A DNA stretch of 64,000 nt, taken from positions 1 to 64,000 of the forward strand of contig PEAD01000007.1 in assembly GCA_002753335.1 (NCBI GenBank). The letters are read 5' to 3'. The translations under genes were made by a program, and so were the position numbers. Positions 54,093 through 61,676 of the stretch are shown here, one piece after another (position 1 is the stretch's first letter; every line of letters starts with the position of its first letter). The DNA is from Nitrospirae bacterium MYbin3 (GTDB lineage: Bacteria > Nitrospirota > Thermodesulfovibrionia > Thermodesulfovibrionales > Dissulfurispiraceae). The notes below the pieces were generated by a model that ran no database searches, was not told the origin of the DNA, and worked only from the letters and a program-made list of their open reading frames with translations.

Positions 54093-55031
54093 CTACAATT
54101 CTTCGATCACCATCGCAGCAAGCAGAGGGAACATTATTTCATGGTGTCCGGTCAGGGCGTATGAGCGTCCGTTCTTCATGGTAGGTCTTTTGAGCACGTT
54201 TTCGCGAGGCCGGTAGTGCTGAATAAAATCCATATTGACTGTGGTGAAATTCTCGACTTTATTGCCTAAGTTTCTCGCTACAGTAAGCGCTTTCAAAAAC
54301 ACTTCAGGAAGAAGAACTGCAGAGCCGAGATTGATATAAACTCCGCCTTCAAGGTCTGCAACCACAGATGAAAACAATCTGAAATCCCTTAAGCTTCCCT
54401 CGCCTATGCTTGCGCCGTCAGCTTCGGGATGCATATGGATTATATCTGCTCCAACAGCCACATGGACCGTAACTGGAAGCTCTTTTTTAAACGCCTCGCT
54501 AAATATGCTCAGGCTTTTGTTCGGGAAATCTGAAGCGTTTATAAAAGAACCGATAGAGCTTCCGATGCCTTTGCCCTCTTTAACTCCTGCTGTTATCGCT
54601 TCGTTTAAAAGACCGCCTGTTTCTTTTGCCATGCCGAATGAGCCTGTGCAAAGCTCGGCCGCCACATCTTCGGAGGTGCAGCCTGCATAGGCAATTTCGA
54701 AGTCATGGATTATACAGGCCCCGTTGCAGGCAACGGCCGTAATAACATTTTTTTGCATCAGGTCGATGATCAAAGGCGAGAGCCCGACTTTGATGGGATG
54801 AGCTCCCATGCCGAGTATCACAGGCCGGCCGTTTCTGCGCGCTTCTACAATATGTTTTGCTACCGCTTTTATGTCTGTGGCTGCGAGGAAATCAGGCAGG
54901 CTCTTTGCAAAGTCCTTTAAAGAAATCCCTTTTGAAATCGGGGTTCCGGCCTTATCCAACGAAACCTTGCTTTTCCTTCCTGCAATCGAGTAGGTTTTGA
55001 GTTTTGAAAGGTCTAAAGGTACGCGTTTCAT
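54093..55031 (-). CDS. Deoxyhypusine-synthase-like protein of unknown function
   Basis: This protein of about 312 residues begins MKRVPLDLSKLKTYSI at 55031. The core GRPVILGMGAHPIKVGLSPLIIDLMQKNVITAVACNGACIIHDFEIA resembles the NAD-binding region of deoxyhypusine synthase (a G-A then HD pattern), and GSSIGSFINAS and VHVAVGADIIHMHPEADGASIGEGS follow. Bacteria normally lack eIF5A, so another substrate is expected. Distant homology only; I cannot assign a reaction. No ribosome site; an extended TGC-TACAAT lies just upstream. Confidence 0.7.
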   Translation of the reverse strand: MKRVPLDLSKLKTYSIAGRKSKVSLDKAGTPISKGISLKDFAKSLPDFLAATDIKAVAKHIVEARRNGRPVILGMGAHPIKVGLSPLIIDLMQKNVITAVACNGACIIHDFEIAYAGCTSEDVAAELCTGSFGMAKETGGLLNEAITAGVKEGKGIGSSIGSFINASDFPNKSLSIFSEAFKKELPVTVHVAVGADIIHMHPEADGASIGEGSLRDFRLFSSVVADLEGGVYINLGSAVLLPEVFLKALTVARNLGNKVENFTTVNMDFIQHYRPRENVLKRPTMKNGRSYALTGHHEIMFPLLAAMVIEEL

Positions 55032-55039
55032 AATCTGAA

Positions 55040-55048
55040 ATTGTAGCA
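55040..55048 (-). promoter_or_regulatory. Extended -10, leaderless position, before DHS-like gene
   Basis: Minus strand TGCTACAAT gives a start at about 55033, two bases before the ATG at 55031. No Shine-Dalgarno. Confidence 0.4.
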
Positions 55049-55054
55049 CAAACA

Positions 55055-55084
55055 TTGATTTTCTGCTAAAGATTGTGATAAAGT
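55055..55084 (+). promoter_or_regulatory. Candidate promoter of rpsT
   Basis: TTGATT, 18-base spacer, TAAAGT. It gives a leader of about 30 bases containing AAGGAGG before the TTG start of rpsT. Confidence 0.45.
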
Positions 55085-55433: not shown

Positions 55434-55466
55434 AAAGGGAGCAGTATGTTAACTGCTCCCTTTTTT
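55434..55466 (+). terminator. Rho-independent terminator after rpsT
   Basis: AAAGGGAGCAGT, 6-base loop, ACTGCTCCCTTT then further Ts. The stem is perfect. It also lies at the end of the converging nitroreductase gene. Confidence 0.9.
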
Positions 55467-55468
55467 AA

Positions 55469-56131
55469 TTATTCGACCAGCTTAAGAATTGTGTCGGTGT
55501 CTTCTCTTCCTGTTACAAAACTATTCGCCGGATGATCTAATTCCGGATATCCTAAAGAAATGCCGAGCACCAGTTTTTTAGTATCAGGTATTTCAAGAAA
55601 CTTCCTGATGGCTGGTGAGTAGTCAATCAAAAACGCCTGCGGCACGGTGCCTAGCCCGAAGGCCCAAGCTGCGAGCATAATATTCTGACAAAACAATCCC
55701 GCGTCGAACATCGACCACTCAGCGAGAGCCTTGTCCTGAAAAACAAAAATGCCGTGCGGAGCGCCGTAGAATCTGAAGTTTGCAATTTTAGATTTCTTTT
55801 TTATCTCTGGCGAGTTAAGGTCAACGCCCGCCGCGCTTCCTCTTGCCTTGAAGAGAGCGTCTATTCTCTGTCCTATTGCTGCAGGCCATGCAGGTGGCTC
55901 CGGTATGTCAGGCTCCGGTTTTGCACCGCTTTCGAGTAGTCCTGTGAGTATCTGTGTAAGCTCCTCTTTTTTCTTGCCCGAAACAATCACAGCTTCCCAC
56001 GGCTGGCTGTTTTTGTAAGATGGCGCCTGCTGAGCCGTTGCGATCACTTTTTTTAAAAGCTCCTGTGAGACAGCCTCAGATTTGAATTTTCTAATACTTT
56101 TGCGTGTTGTTATGCATTCTATTGCGTCCAA
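55469..56131 (-). CDS. Nitroreductase-family flavoprotein
   Basis: This 220-residue protein starts at TTG with GGAGG upstream. The FMN-binding start IECITTRKSIRKFKSEAVSQELL, QAPSYKNSQPWEAVIV, and GTVPQAFLIDYSPAIRKFLEIPD are typical. The substrate is unknown. It lies 15 bases after purC, so it ends the htpX operon. Confidence 0.88.
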   Translation of the reverse strand: MDAIECITTRKSIRKFKSEAVSQELLKKVIATAQQAPSYKNSQPWEAVIVSGKKKEELTQILTGLLESGAKPEPDIPEPPAWPAAIGQRIDALFKARGSAAGVDLNSPEIKKKSKIANFRFYGAPHGIFVFQDKALAEWSMFDAGLFCQNIMLAAWAFGLGTVPQAFLIDYSPAIRKFLEIPDTKKLVLGISLGYPELDHPANSFVTGREDTDTILKLVE

Positions 56132-56146: not shown

Positions 56147-57025
56147 TTACGCCGTCAATATCCCTAAAATCTCTCTGTACCGGGCAGTGGTTTTTTGCAC
56201 GATGTCGTCCGGAAGCGCCGGACCCGGATATGTCTGGTCCCAGTCCAGTGTCAGAAGATAGTCTCTCACTATTTGTTTGTCGAAGCTGTCCTGTCCTTTG
56301 CCGGGCTGATAATTTTTTGCTGACCAGAAGCGCGAAGAGTCGGGAGTCAGGACTTCGTCAATAAGTATCAGCCTATTCTGATGCAGGCCGAACTCCATCT
56401 TGGTATCGGCAATGATGATGCCTTTTTTCTCGGCCATTTCACGCGCTTTTTTGTAGATGGCGATTGTCGTATCACGCAGGAATGATGCCTTGTCCTCTCC
56501 TACTATCTTTGCCATCTCTTCAAAACTTATGTTTATGTCATGCCCCTCGTCAGCTTTGGTGCTCGGCGTGAATATCGGTTCATCAAGACGCGATGATTCG
56601 ACCAGCCCGGCAGGAAGCTTAATGCCGCATACTGTGCCGTCTTTCTTATACTCTTTCCAGCCTGAGCCCGAAAGGTATCCTCTTACGATGCATTCAACAG
56701 GCATCGGCGCAGCTTTCTTTACAAGCATGCTTCTGTCTTCCAGAATGTCCGCATATTTGTGAAGAATCTGCGGATAGTCCTTAAGCTCTGTGGCAACAAT
56801 ATGGTTTTCGATAAGGTCTCTCATCTGGTTGAACCAAAAGACCGATATCTGCGTCAGAATTCTGCCCTTGTCCTGAATGCCGTTCGGCAGTACCACATCA
56901 AAGGCCGATACCCTGTCTGTTGCGATGATTAGAAAGCAGTTCTCAACTTCATATACATCACGCACCTTCCCTCGGCGCAGGAACTTTATATCAGAAAGTT
57001 TTGTTTCAAGCACTATGCCCGACAT
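56147..57025 (-). CDS. purC: SAICAR synthetase
   Basis: This 292-residue purine enzyme joins CAIR and aspartate. I start at 57025 ([30 protein letters not shown]) with GGAGGAG upstream; the open frame to 57085 lies in the ATPase gene. It contains [39 protein letters not shown]-type sequence and DTKMEFGL. It overlaps the ATPase gene by 20 bases. Confidence 0.95.
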
Positions 57026-59642
57026 ATTTTCTCCTCCATAATTTTTCGATTTCCACTGCAAAGAATACCACAGAAGATGCGGCAACTGTAAATAACAATT
57101 CGTTGAAAGTCAGTGGTTCTGTCTTTAATATCGCATTAAAAGCCGGAATGTATATAACAGCAAGTTGTGCCGCAAAGCTGAACAGAACAGCTCCGAGCAG
57201 GGCCTTATTGCTGAATATGCCGATGGTGAAAAGAGATTCCCGCTCGGAGCGTATAGCAAGCACATGGCCCAACTGTGTAAGACAGACAACCGTAAATACC
57301 ATGGTCTGCCAGTGAGCGCCGGAGTGATTAATAGACCAGTATTGGGTAAGCAGGGCGATGATTCCCATGAGCAGTCCTACCCAGACAACATGGTATCCGA
57401 GTCCGTGCGCGAAGATGCTTTCCTGCGGATGCCTCGGCGGCCGCTTCAATACATCGCCTTCAGCAGGTTCAAGCGAAAGCGCGAGTGCTGGCAGGGCATC
57501 TGTCATAAGGTTTATCCATAAAATTTGTATGGGCTGCAGCGGTATCGGAAGCCCGACAATCGGCGCTAAAAAAAGCGTCCATATCTCTCCTGAATTCGTT
57601 GTTAGAAGGTATTTTACGAACTTGCGGATGTTGTCATATATTTTTCTGCCCTCTTTTACCGCTTTTACTATTGTGGCGAAATTATCGTCAAGCAGGATCA
57701 TGTGAGCGGCCTCTTTTGAAACATCGGTGCCTGTTATGCCCATCGCTATTCCGATGTCAGCCCGTTTGAGGGCAGGAGCGTCATTCACGCCGTCGCCTGT
57801 CATTGCTGCGAACTGTCCTCTGTCCTGAAGCGCTTTTATTATTTTTAGCTTCTGTTCAGGCGCGACCCTCGCGTAAACCTTTATATGTTCCACACGGGTT
57901 TCGAATTCGCTCAACGGGAGTTGTTCGAGCTCTCTGCCGGTGATAACGGAATCGGCACTGTCTGTTTCTTCGAGAATGCCGAGCCGTTTGGCTATTGCCG
58001 TGGCCGTAAGCGGATGGTCGCCTGTGATCATTACAGGCTTGATTCCTGCGCTTTTGCAGAGCTTCACCGCCTCTTTTGCCTCTTCTCTCGGAGGATCCAT
58101 AATCCCTGCAAGGCCGATGATGGTAAGGGTCTTCTCACAATCTTCCGGAGAAAGTTTTGCGGGCACCTCATCCCATTGTCTCATCGCAACGCAGATGACC
58201 CTTAGTCCATCCGCCGCCATTTTGTCGCTTGCCTCGGTCAGGGCTTTTTTATCTATGGGTTCAATGCCGTCTGCGGTCATAAAACAATCCGCTTTTTCTA
58301 TCAGGTTTTCGAATGCGCCTTTTGTGAAAGAGACAAACCCGGTTTTTTCTGCCGACTGTTTGTGAAACGTCGTCATGCATTTTCTGTCCGAATCGAACGG
58401 GATTTCCCCAACACGCGGAAAAATTTCATGCAGGGATTTGGTTGAGAAACCTTTTGTCAGCGCTATTTCGAGAAGCGCTACTTCGGTGGGGTCGCCTATT
58501 ATATTGCCTTCAGCATTTGAGTGGGAATCATTGTTTAGTACGAAGGCGGTAAAAAGCGAAGGATGCAAGTTGCCATTCATTGCTTTTAACGCATCACTTT
58601 TAAGCAGATTTCGATCTGCCCAAATCTCTTCGACAGCCATTTTATTCATGGTAAGAGTGCCTGTTTTATCTGAGCAGATAAAAGTCACCGAACCGAGTGT
58701 TTCGACCGCCGGAAGTTTTCTGATGAGAGAGTTCTGTTGTACCATCTTGCGGGCACCCAGCGCTAAGGCTATGGTTACAACGGCCGGAAGGGCTTCGGGG
58801 ATTGCAGCTACAGCCAAAGATATTGCTGTCAAAAGCATGAGCATCGGCTTTTCGCCGCGCATAATGCCTGCCGCAAGAACTATCGCGCAGATGAATAGAA
58901 TGGCCACCGCAAGTTTTTTGCCGAATGAAGCGAGCCTTTTTTGTAATGGAGTTTTTACCTCTTCTTCGTTCTGAAGCATGCCAGCTATCTTGCCGAGCTC
59001 GGTCTGCATTCCGGTTGTTGCTACAACTCCTGTGCCCCTTCCATAAACGACACTGGTTCCTTTGTACGCGATATTTTTTCTGTCACCGAGAGGCATATCA
59101 GCATCTTTGAGATGATGGGTGTGCTTTTCAACAGCTTCTGATTCCCCTGTTAGCGCGGCTTCCTGAATCTTTAACTGTGCGGCTTCAATAATACGCAGGT
59201 CGGCAGGCACAATCCTTCCTGCTTCGAGGAGCACAACATCGCCTGGAACCAGATCTGAAGCAGGCAAAGGTGTCGGGTGGCTGTTTCTCAGAACAACAGC
59301 GGAAGCTGCCGACATTTTTTTGAGCGCTGCCACAGCTTTTTCTGCGCGGTATTCCTGAACAAAACCTATAACAGCATTTAGCACTACGATCACAATTATT
59401 GCGATTGTGTCCGAAGGCTCGCCTATAATGCCCGAAATCACCGCCGCAGCTATAAGCACAAGAATCATAAAATCCTTGAACTGATCAAGGAACATAATAA
59501 AAGGTGTTTTCCGTGCTTTTTCTTTAAGTTCGTTGGTGCCGTATTGTTCCAGTCTTTTCTGCGCTTCGTCCGATGAAAGACCGCGTAAAGAACTGTTTAA
59601 TGCCGAAAGAGTTTCATCGATATTTTTTTGATGCCATGTCAT
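57006..59642 (-). CDS. P-type (P2A-like) cation ATPase
   Basis: This 878-residue pump has an N-terminal cation ATPase domain, the TGES motif ([12 protein letters not shown]), TM4 [12 protein letters not shown], phosphorylation site [13 protein letters not shown], the [17 protein letters not shown] hinge and TM6 [12 protein letters not shown]. This is the Ca2+/Mn2+ class. It lies in an operon behind an apparent Mn2+ riboswitch, so Mn2+ export is my preferred guess; Ca2+ is the alternative. Confidence 0.93.
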
Positions 59643-59723
59643 GAGGGCCTCTTATAATAGATGAGAATAAAGTACGGGGCAGATAATCTGCCCCGGTTAA
59701 ATGCAACGTAATACTTGTGACGG

Positions 59724-60023
59724 TTATTTTTTGAAAACGCTGAAAAGTTTGTCTATGCCGGATTTCTCAAGCTTGGCGACGGTTTCGAGCTCGCCTGCAT
59801 CAAGCCAGATTCCTGCACACTCGGAGCATTTGTCGATTTTTATATGTTTGTAGTCTATCTCTATAAGCTCCATGCCGCATTTTGGGCATCTCATGTGATG
59901 CAGTTCTTTCAGTTTTTTCTTTTCCTCTTTTGCGATATGTTTATGTTTTTCTTCCTCGATTTTTTTGAGCTTTGCAAATTCCTGTCGGGCAATGAACTCT
60001 TCTTCTTTTTCTGTCGGCTTCAT
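59724..60023 (-). CDS. zf-TFIIB-type zinc-ribbon protein
   Basis: This 99-residue protein has a charged coiled coil (about 1-42) followed by a zinc ribbon CPKC...CSEC with the GIWLDAGELE motif common in these small proteins. Function unknown. It is between the ATPase gene and purE. Confidence 0.85.
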   Translation of the reverse strand: MKPTEKEEEFIARQEFAKLKKIEEEKHKHIAKEEKKKLKELHHMRCPKCGMELIEIDYKHIKIDKCSECAGIWLDAGELETVAKLEKSGIDKLFSVFKK

Positions 60024-60035
60024 GTGGTCCTCCGT

Positions 60036-60527
60036 TTATGTTTTTTTCAGTGTTTCGGATTTTTCGATTAGGCTTTGTCTGGTTTTCTCTCTGAACTTTT
60101 CAAGATTTTCTGCTATCGCAGGATATTTTATCGAAAGAATTGAACACGCAAGATACGCGGCGTTTTTAGCCCCGTCAATCGCTACGGTTGCAACCGGTAT
60201 TCCTGGAGGCATTTGTACTGTCGAGTAGAGGGCATCAACACCGCTTAAAGCTCCAGATTTCAAAGGCACGCCTATAACCGGTAATGTTGTGTGAGAGGCG
60301 ATTACTCCTGCAAGGTGCGCGGCCATACCGGCGCCAGCAATTATAACTTCGATTCCGCGTTCCCGTGCTGTTTTTGCGTATTGCGCTGTTTTGTCGGGCA
60401 GTCTGTGCGCCGAGCTAATATCCATCTTGTATTCAACGCCAATTTCTTTCAAAACCGCGGCCGCTTTTTCCATAACAGGCAGGTCACTGTCGCTTCCCAT
60501 GAGTATCCCGACAAGAGGTGCAGCCAT
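60036..60527 (-). CDS. purE: N5-carboxyaminoimidazole ribonucleotide mutase
   Basis: This 163-residue purine enzyme has [49 protein letters not shown] and [33 protein letters not shown], all class I PurE signatures. No purK is adjacent. It is 2 bases from htpX. Confidence 0.97.
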
Positions 60528-60529
60528 TG

Positions 60530-61381
60530 CTATGCCCCCATCCTCATCGCTTCAAGTCTTGCAACCCTTTCTTCAATAGGCGGATGCGTGCTGAAGAGTT
60601 TTAGTATGCCGCCGCCGGTAAGCGGGTTTACGATGAACATATGAGAGGTTGCCGGGTTTGCGTCCAGCGGTATTCTCTGCGATGCCATTTCGAGTTTTTT
60701 CAGGGCATTTGCAAGATATCTTGGGTTGCCGCAGATCTTTGCGCCGCCTGCATCTGCTCCGTATTCTCTCGCTCTCGATATCGCCATCTGGACAAGCATT
60801 GCAGCTATCGGACCGACTATCATCATTACAATCGCGGCTATCGGGTTGCTGCTTCCTTCATCATCGTCGCTTCTGCCGCCGCCGAATATCGCTGCCCACT
60901 GAGCCATCTGCGCTATATAGCTTATTGCGCCGGCAATTGTTGCGGCTATAGTGCTGACAAGGATGTCTCTGTTTTTAATATGCGCGAGTTCGTGCGCTAT
61001 AACGCCTTCGAGTTCTTCACGGCTTAACAGTCTCATAATGCCTGTTGTCACGGCAACAGTCCCATGCTCAGGGTTTCTGCCCGTAGCAAAAGCATTTGGC
61101 TGGTCCTCATCCATTATACAGACACGCGGCATTGGAAGCTGAGCCCTGTGGCTTAGGCTTCTTACCATTGAATAAAGCTCAGGAGCTTCAGATTCGGTCA
61201 CCGGTTTTGCCCCGTACATCTTTAGCACGATTTTATCGCTGAACCAGTATGAGATAAAGTTCATGCCGAAGGCCATTATCAGCGCGAAGGTCATTCCTGT
61301 TTTACCGCCGATGGCTGCGCCCACAAGCACCAGCATTAGCGTAAGTGTTACCATTAAGGCCATTGTTTTGATTCCGTTCAT
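60530..61381 (-). CDS. htpX: Zinc metalloprotease HtpX
   Basis: This membrane M48 protease for misfolded membrane proteins has 283 residues. It has two N-terminal TM helices, the HELAH zinc motif ([13 protein letters not shown]), two more TM segments, and [16 protein letters not shown] with the third ligand. ATG at 61381 is preferred (GGAGG 8 bases upstream) over a GTG at 61387. First gene behind the riboswitch leader. Confidence 0.95.
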
Positions 61382-61402: not shown

Positions 61403-61449
61403 AAATCAAAAAGACCTTTACCGCAAATATCTTGATGCGGTAAAGGTCT
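61403..61449 (-). terminator. Leader terminator of the Mn riboswitch
   Basis: Minus strand AGACCTTTACCGCA, 10-base loop, TGCGGTAAAGGTCT then TTTTTGATTT: a perfect 14-bp stem with T-run. Its 5' arm contains the CCTTTA that closes aptamer helix P1, so the two structures exclude each other. Confidence 0.88.
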
Positions 61450-61538
61450 CGCTTGTTAGTTTCAAACTAACTGATGGTACCGGCCGGTTTTTTTCCAGCG
61501 TGCTGACGATATCCATCAATTCAGCTACTCCCCTCTAC
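61441..61538 (-). promoter_or_regulatory. yybP-ykoY family (Mn2+) riboswitch aptamer
   Basis: Minus strand, in order: TAGAGGGGAGTAGC (61537-61524), CGTCAGCACG in the middle, a CCGGCCGG/GTACC region, GTTAGTTTGAAACTAAC hairpin, and GCGAGACCTTTA (61452-61441). The GGGGAGUAG and GCGAGACCUUU blocks with P1 pairing of UAGAGG and CCUUUA are the marks of yybP-ykoY aptamers, which bind Mn2+ and usually turn transcription on. The overlapping terminator fits an ON switch for htpX and the ATPase operon. Assigned from memory of the motif; a covariance search is the test. Confidence 0.8.
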
Positions 61539-61676
61539 TTATTATTTAATTTAGCTTAAGGGCCTAAAACAAGTCAAGGTGAATCGTTGAGCTTTTCTCG
61601 TTATTTATGGCCATGTTATACTGCTTTAAGCTTATCTTTTTAACCAAACATTTTCCCGATGAGCTAAAAAAACAAA

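Follow-up and report, generated by a model that had tools for sequence, protein, structure and literature searches.

Introduction

The leader that precedes htpX on the minus strand of the window (the whole stretch of DNA analyzed here, 64,000 nucleotides in length) raises the question of which signal it senses, and how far along the following run of genes its influence extends. The first-pass annotation had read this leader as a Mn2+ riboswitch of the yybP-ykoY type, heading an htpX-purE-ATPase-purC operon. In the representatives of this class from L. lactis and X. oryzae, phosphates of the loops L1 and L3 bind the ion together with the N7 atom of an invariant adenosine (A41/A48), and mutating this adenosine leads to loss of the stably docked state (PMC6754395).

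Architecture of the Leader

Both conserved blocks are present on the minus strand (GGGGAGTAGC at 61533-61524 and GCGAGACCTTT at 61452-61442), and the helices P1.1, P1.2, P3.1, P3.2 and P4 are arranged around one junction, which is the architecture of the class, where P2 is optional (it is missing from mgtA and alx). L1 (GGGGAGUA, 61533-61526) faces RAGACC (61450-61445) between P1.1 and P1.2, as is characteristic of the class. The elements of the leader are as follows:

61548..61577, minus strand: site resembling a promoter, TTGACT-18-TAAATT, immediately before the aptamer (consensus scan, 9/12 matches)
61439..61542, minus strand: predicted yybP-ykoY (Mn2+) aptamer in its three-way-junction form, lacking P2 (leave-out covariance model R3, see below)
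61532..61538 with 61440-61446, minus strand: switch helix P1.1, 7 bp, 5' strand GUAGAGG paired with CCUUUAC
61526..61531, minus strand: L1 loop GGAGUA, side 1 of the metal core (GGAGUA in 70/74 homologues)
61500..61512, minus strand: L3 loop AUAUCGUCAGCAC, containing CGUCA at 61508-61504
61455..61471, minus strand: P4 hairpin GUUAG/CUAAC, third helix of the three-way junction next to P1.2 and P3
61403..61450, minus strand: intrinsic terminator with the P1.1 3' strand inside its 5' arm (stem of 15 perfect pairs, 10-nt loop, then the tail TTTGATTT)

All 7 bp of P1.1 are paired in 13 of 13 sequences, with two-sided changes at two positions, and the CGUCA of L3 is invariant in alignment A2 and present in 64 of the 74 homologues. 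P4 is recovered both by the free minimum of an aptamer-length transcript and by covariation, and the leader as a whole folds with a z-score of -5.5 relative to shuffles. Based on motif alignment, A61504 would take the place of A41/A48, the adenosine that senses Mn in L. lactis and X. oryzae. The window copy is without P2, which is replaced by a 4-6 nt linker in most Nitrospirota copies; those of the Desulfuromonadales have the P2 hairpin. The three-way form is not new, since S. pneumoniae mgtA has such a form and the E. coli alx leader aligns likewise.

The terminator stem is formed by 61450-61436 pairing with 61425-61411, followed directly by the tail, and the hairpin has a folding energy of -22.9 kcal/mol. 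CCUUUAC is the strand common to P1.1 and to this stem, making the two helices mutually exclusive, as in the expression platforms of the class and in line with the proposal that P1 competes with a perfect intrinsic terminator. When the transcript is folded freely at increasing lengths, a structure with P1.1 (-32.0 kcal/mol at 102 nt) gives way to the terminator form (-49.9 kcal/mol at full length); the full-length transcript with P1.1 enforced reaches -37.9 kcal/mol. A terminator that uses the P1.1 3' strand was found in 55 of the 61 homologues tested, compared to 0-14% for shuffled tails, with no terminator detectable in some homologues (the GDT1 group and others). The promoter-like site is weak evidence alone, with shuffles averaging 0.5 sites.

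This layout is the arrangement of the L. lactis yybP-ykoY riboswitch (PMC11087558, PDB 4Y1I), where the P1.1 3' strand is likewise common with the terminator, a GG of P1.1 pairs with CC, L3 contains UCA, and stabilization of P1.1 by Mn2+ results in antitermination (PMC11087558). The window switch is therefore expected to be ON at high Mn2+. Unlike the window, the L. lactis RNA has a four-way junction with P2 and controls its exporter gene directly.

Covariance Models and the Rfam Family

The covariance match to RF00080 that the first-pass annotation had looked to is formally absent: a search at gathering level gave zero Rfam matches in the whole window, and RF00080 (Rfam 15) scores the leader at 11.2 bits against a cut-off of 45, in a poor alignment. 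The same model also fails validated positives. Among the leaders of E. coli K-12 used as controls, mntP scores 41.6 bits, below the model's own cut-off, and alx is unlisted at E<=0.1, such that this test is insensitive to part of its own family.

We used three models of our own: R1, built from 13 sequences (the htpX upstream regions of relatives); R2, a broader model applied across the rest of the phylum; and R3, a leave-out model trained without the window and without its sister species. R3 scores the window at 101.5 bits (E 2.6e-27, a rough value as the calibration was short), with the next-best position in the window at just 10.1 bits, and on the E. coli leaders it gives 45.4 bits for alx and 21.8 bits for mntP (E 8.1e-11 and 6.7e-4, both likewise rough). 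The alx leader is also detected by R1, at 44.4 bits in 6 kb (rough E 2e-11). Thus, training on Nitrospirota leaders alone suffices to detect alx (44.4-45.4 bits); the alx leader has the same L1 and L3 as the window and no P2, and differs in its longer P4 and in controlling a TerC-family exporter.

The structure is further supported by covariation. RNAalifold recovers P1.1, P1.2, P3.1, P3.2 and P4 from the 13 sequences without guidance. With the hand-written structure, 92.3% of cells in these sequences pair and 13 of 25 pairs show two-sided changes, a level that 0 of 500 shuffles reach. Across 74 sequences, in an alignment that was itself fitted to the structure, two-sided changes extend to 22 of 25 pairs, again with 0 of 500 shuffles as high. 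Two sets of weaker matches were discarded: a second RF00080 match in the genome (C37:181543, 28 nt, 15.2 bits) is a fragment repeated by neither R1 nor R2, and weak matches to mir-8186, mir-451 and others are chance fits to the terminator palindrome.

Taken together with the expression platform and the genes behind its relatives (TerC, GDT1 and P-type ATPase), the sequence, structure and covariation of the leader bear out its assignment to the yybP-ykoY Mn2+ class. On this sequence evidence, we regard it as a genuine riboswitch of that class, a new member of a known family that was recognized by eye where Rfam failed.

Homologues and Their Downstream Genes

Of 150 genomes of the order, 50 carry the RNA according to R1, with 66 copies in all. 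The nearest downstream gene, assigned by tblastn with a gene panel, is htpX for 24 copies, beta-carbonic anhydrase for 8, the P2A ATPase for 11 and a zinc ribbon (normally followed by the ATPase) for 5, with TerC, GDT1 and UPF0114 accounting for 4 each, UPF0182 for 2 and SPFH for 1; none was found for 3. The homologues thus precede Mn homeostasis genes (TerC, GDT1, P-type ATPase), as is typical of the class, and htpX is the commonest single gene behind the switch in the order. The same RNA lies upstream of htpX at 17 of the 30 nearest htpX loci. In the rest of the phylum, R2 places the switch before GDT1, ATPase, htpX, UPF0182 and SPFH genes, and copies in the Desulfuromonadales precede htpX or TerC, so that the htpX pairing recurs in a second phylum. 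The HtpX nearest to that of the window (98% identical) comes from Nitrospirae DP16D_bin.35; further close relatives carry the label Thermodesulfovibrionales.

We also note that beta-carbonic anhydrase, SPFH/Band_7, UPF0114 and UPF0182 genes stand directly behind Mn switches in relatives (e.g., L166, L179, L193, L167). A carbonic anhydrase-GDT1-TerC cluster also occurs in the genome of the window itself (C44:34.1-36.1 kb); a riboswitch was sought upstream of it and none found, whereas in relatives such genes are preceded by one. MntP was looked for in this genome and is absent.

The Gene Run and the Reach of the Switch

The genes behind the leader, in order of transcription, and the hairpins among them are:

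60530..61380, minus strand: htpX, zinc metalloprotease with HELAH motif (PF01435 E 2.7e-37; NF002826 414.5 bits, cut-off 369)
60036..60527, minus strand: purE, 2 nt after htpX (TIGR01162 211.8 bits, cut-off 149.6)
59724..60023, minus strand: 99-aa zinc-ribbon (zf-TFIIB) gene, 12 nt after purE (PF13453 E 1.3e-15)
59675..59695, minus strand: intergenic hairpin CGGGGCAGA-TTA-TCTGCCCCG before the ATPase gene (terminator-like scan)
57006..59642, minus strand: P2A-type cation ATPase (TIGR01522, PMR1-type, 764.7 bits, just below the cut-off of 798)
56147..57025, minus strand: purC, overlapping the end of the ATPase gene (NF010568 419.9 bits, cut-off 251; start by RBS GGAGGAGAAAATATG)
55469..56131, minus strand: nitroreductase-family gene, last of the run, 15 nt after purC (PF00881 E 2.5e-34)
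55434..55463, no strand assigned: palindromic hairpin resembling a terminator, in the space that separates the end of the operon from a convergent rpsT-like gene (scan and sequence)

htpX starts at the ATG at 61380, preceded by AGGAGG at 61395-61390. The proposed order htpX-purE-ATPase-purC on one strand is confirmed, but the zinc-ribbon gene and the terminal nitroreductase gene had been left out of it. The position of the zinc-ribbon gene just upstream of the ATPase recurs in relatives. The nearest solved structures to the ATPase are Listeria LMCA1 and human SPCA1, making it a candidate Mn2+ (or Ca2+/Mn2+) exporter on homology; the earlier suggestion of this role gains weight from the switch lying directly upstream of its orthologues at 11 places, or 16 when those with the zinc ribbon in between are included. 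Beyond the rpsT-like gene, a 320-aa open reading frame (54093-55055, minus strand) has no Pfam match at E<=0.001; its sequence looks like that of a possible deoxyhypusine-synthase-like protein.

How much of this run answers to the switch turns on the junction before the ATPase gene. The gap there is 81 nt, compared to 2-15 nt or overlaps at the other junctions, and it carries the GC-rich hairpin at 59675-59695, which is kept in the sister species with one compensated pair change and is possibly an attenuator or an RNA-processing hairpin. Because this hairpin may attenuate transcription, switch-driven expression of the ATPase is likely, not certain. In several relatives (G006, G013, G018, G026, G030, G002), one switch precedes htpX-purE and a second follows a few kb on, before all or part of a carbonic anhydrase/zinc ribbon/ATPase/purC cluster. 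Two Mn switches less than about 10 kb apart, one at htpX and one at the ATPase cluster or part of it, were observed in the same genomes and in G132, G138 and G160 (L145-L188).

It could accordingly be argued that the window switch governs htpX, purE and the zinc ribbon alone, with the ATPase, purC and the nitroreductase gene expressed from another start and no single Mn regulon, as would be in line with the wide gap, its conserved hairpin and the separate switch of the ATPase cluster in relatives. We consider this doubtful, although a serious contender: the tail of the hairpin is U-poor and weak, the remaining genes are tightly packed, and the R1 search of the window's own genome (a 2.9-Mb Nitrospirota assembly) finds a single copy and no second switch. 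Since this genome has one switch and the two clusters abut, the window operon looks, from gene order, as though two Mn operons had been joined behind a single switch.

The first-pass annotation had further proposed a link between metal stress, membrane proteolysis and nucleotide synthesis. The adjacency of purine genes does recur in relatives, with purE following htpX in many family members and purC following the ATPase across the order, but the purine part is the weakest point of the proposal. purE and purC are both housekeeping genes and may be no more than passengers.

Identity of the Ligand

GDT1 (UPF0016) proteins and P-type ATPases belong to the families that carry out Mn efflux, to which TerC is increasingly added (PMC13274385). 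Mn2+ is favored as the ligand because the switch precedes GDT1, P-type ATPase and TerC genes, and we infer both this ligand and readthrough in its presence. A comparable case is S. pneumoniae mgtA (Martin 2019, via PMC9495176), which has a three-way-junction yybP-ykoY aptamer like that of the window, placed before a Mn2+/Ca2+ P-type ATPase whose transcription is turned on by Mn2+. In that system the ATPase is described as the direct target, whereas in the window htpX comes first and the ATPase fourth.

The same RNA architecture might instead be tuned to another divalent metal (Ca2+, Cd2+, Fe2+, Co2+ or other), with htpX answering a different metal stress. Reviewers do expect yybP variants of altered specificity, partly since some associated genes misfit Mn2+ (PMC7266159), and the mgtA aptamer is reported to have a higher affinity for Ca2+ than for Mn2+ (PMC9495176, citing Martin 2019). 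In addition, the window ATPase is closest to Ca2+ pumps, and HtpX contributes to the Cd2+ resistance of E. coli (PMC6391850). However, the letters of L1 and L3 are identical in copies before htpX, ATPase and TerC, and the TerC, GDT1 and P-type ATPase genes behind these copies belong to Mn exporter families. Given this conserved core and these exporter genes, a different metal for the window RNA appears unlikely, with a small chance of being correct. An ordinary attenuator hairpin with a chance resemblance to the class and no metal sensing would account for the zero matches over the Rfam cut-off, but is scarcely credible, being ruled out on sequence grounds by the leave-out model (rough E 2.6e-27), the covariation and the cross-detection of E. 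coli alx.

Proposed Mechanism

We put at roughly 0.88 the probability that the leader belongs to the yybP-ykoY Mn2+ class and acts as an ON-switch for transcription of the htpX run. At low Mn2+, the nascent RNA would give up P1.1, allowing CCUUUAC to enter the 15-bp terminator stem and stopping transcription before htpX. At high Mn2+, the ion would dock L1 and L3, with A61504 as a soft ligand, such that P1.1 is stabilized and the terminator blocked. RNA polymerase would then enter htpX-purE-(zinc ribbon)-P2A ATPase-purC-nitroreductase. Export of Mn2+ would fall to the ATPase, and HtpX would clear the membrane of proteins that excess metal has damaged or mismetallated. We infer the specificity of the ATPase and the reason for the presence of htpX in this scheme. 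At high manganese, the switch thus probably activates expression of the HtpX protease jointly with that of a cation pump and two purine genes.

htpX as a Target

Among the papers searched, none reported htpX as a yybP-ykoY target, although an earlier mention in the gene tables of Dambach 2015, Price 2015 or Martin 2019 is possible, and the two were named together only in two versions of one TerC study. htpX is a conserved target that is apparently little-described. In B. subtilis, SecY, FtsH, HtpX and flotillins are recovered together with purified TerC proteins, and cells lacking the TerC proteins cannot do without FtsH (PMC10550928). Considering this co-purification and the role of HtpX in Cd2+ resistance, a Mn2+-induced membrane protease is plausible, and HtpX could plausibly serve under Mn2+ to clear damaged, mismetallated or jammed membrane proteins.

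Conclusions

In its present form, the Rfam model fails to detect a large clade of Mn switches, and genome annotation therefore under-reports Mn riboswitches. For the Nitrospirota and Desulfuromonadales, we tentatively suggest, at somewhat less than even odds, that the Mn2+ riboswitch governs a membrane-quality-control module (HtpX, SPFH/Band_7, TerC, UPF0114, UPF0182) and carbonic anhydrase besides exporters, that excess Mn2+ would directly induce membrane proteolysis, and that the window represents two such operons fused under one switch. As htpX is the commonest single gene behind the switch in the order and the two are also paired in another phylum, a direct link from manganese excess to membrane proteolysis becomes testable, and such a link would fit the findings on TerC, HtpX, FtsH and flotillins in B. 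subtilis (PMC10550928).
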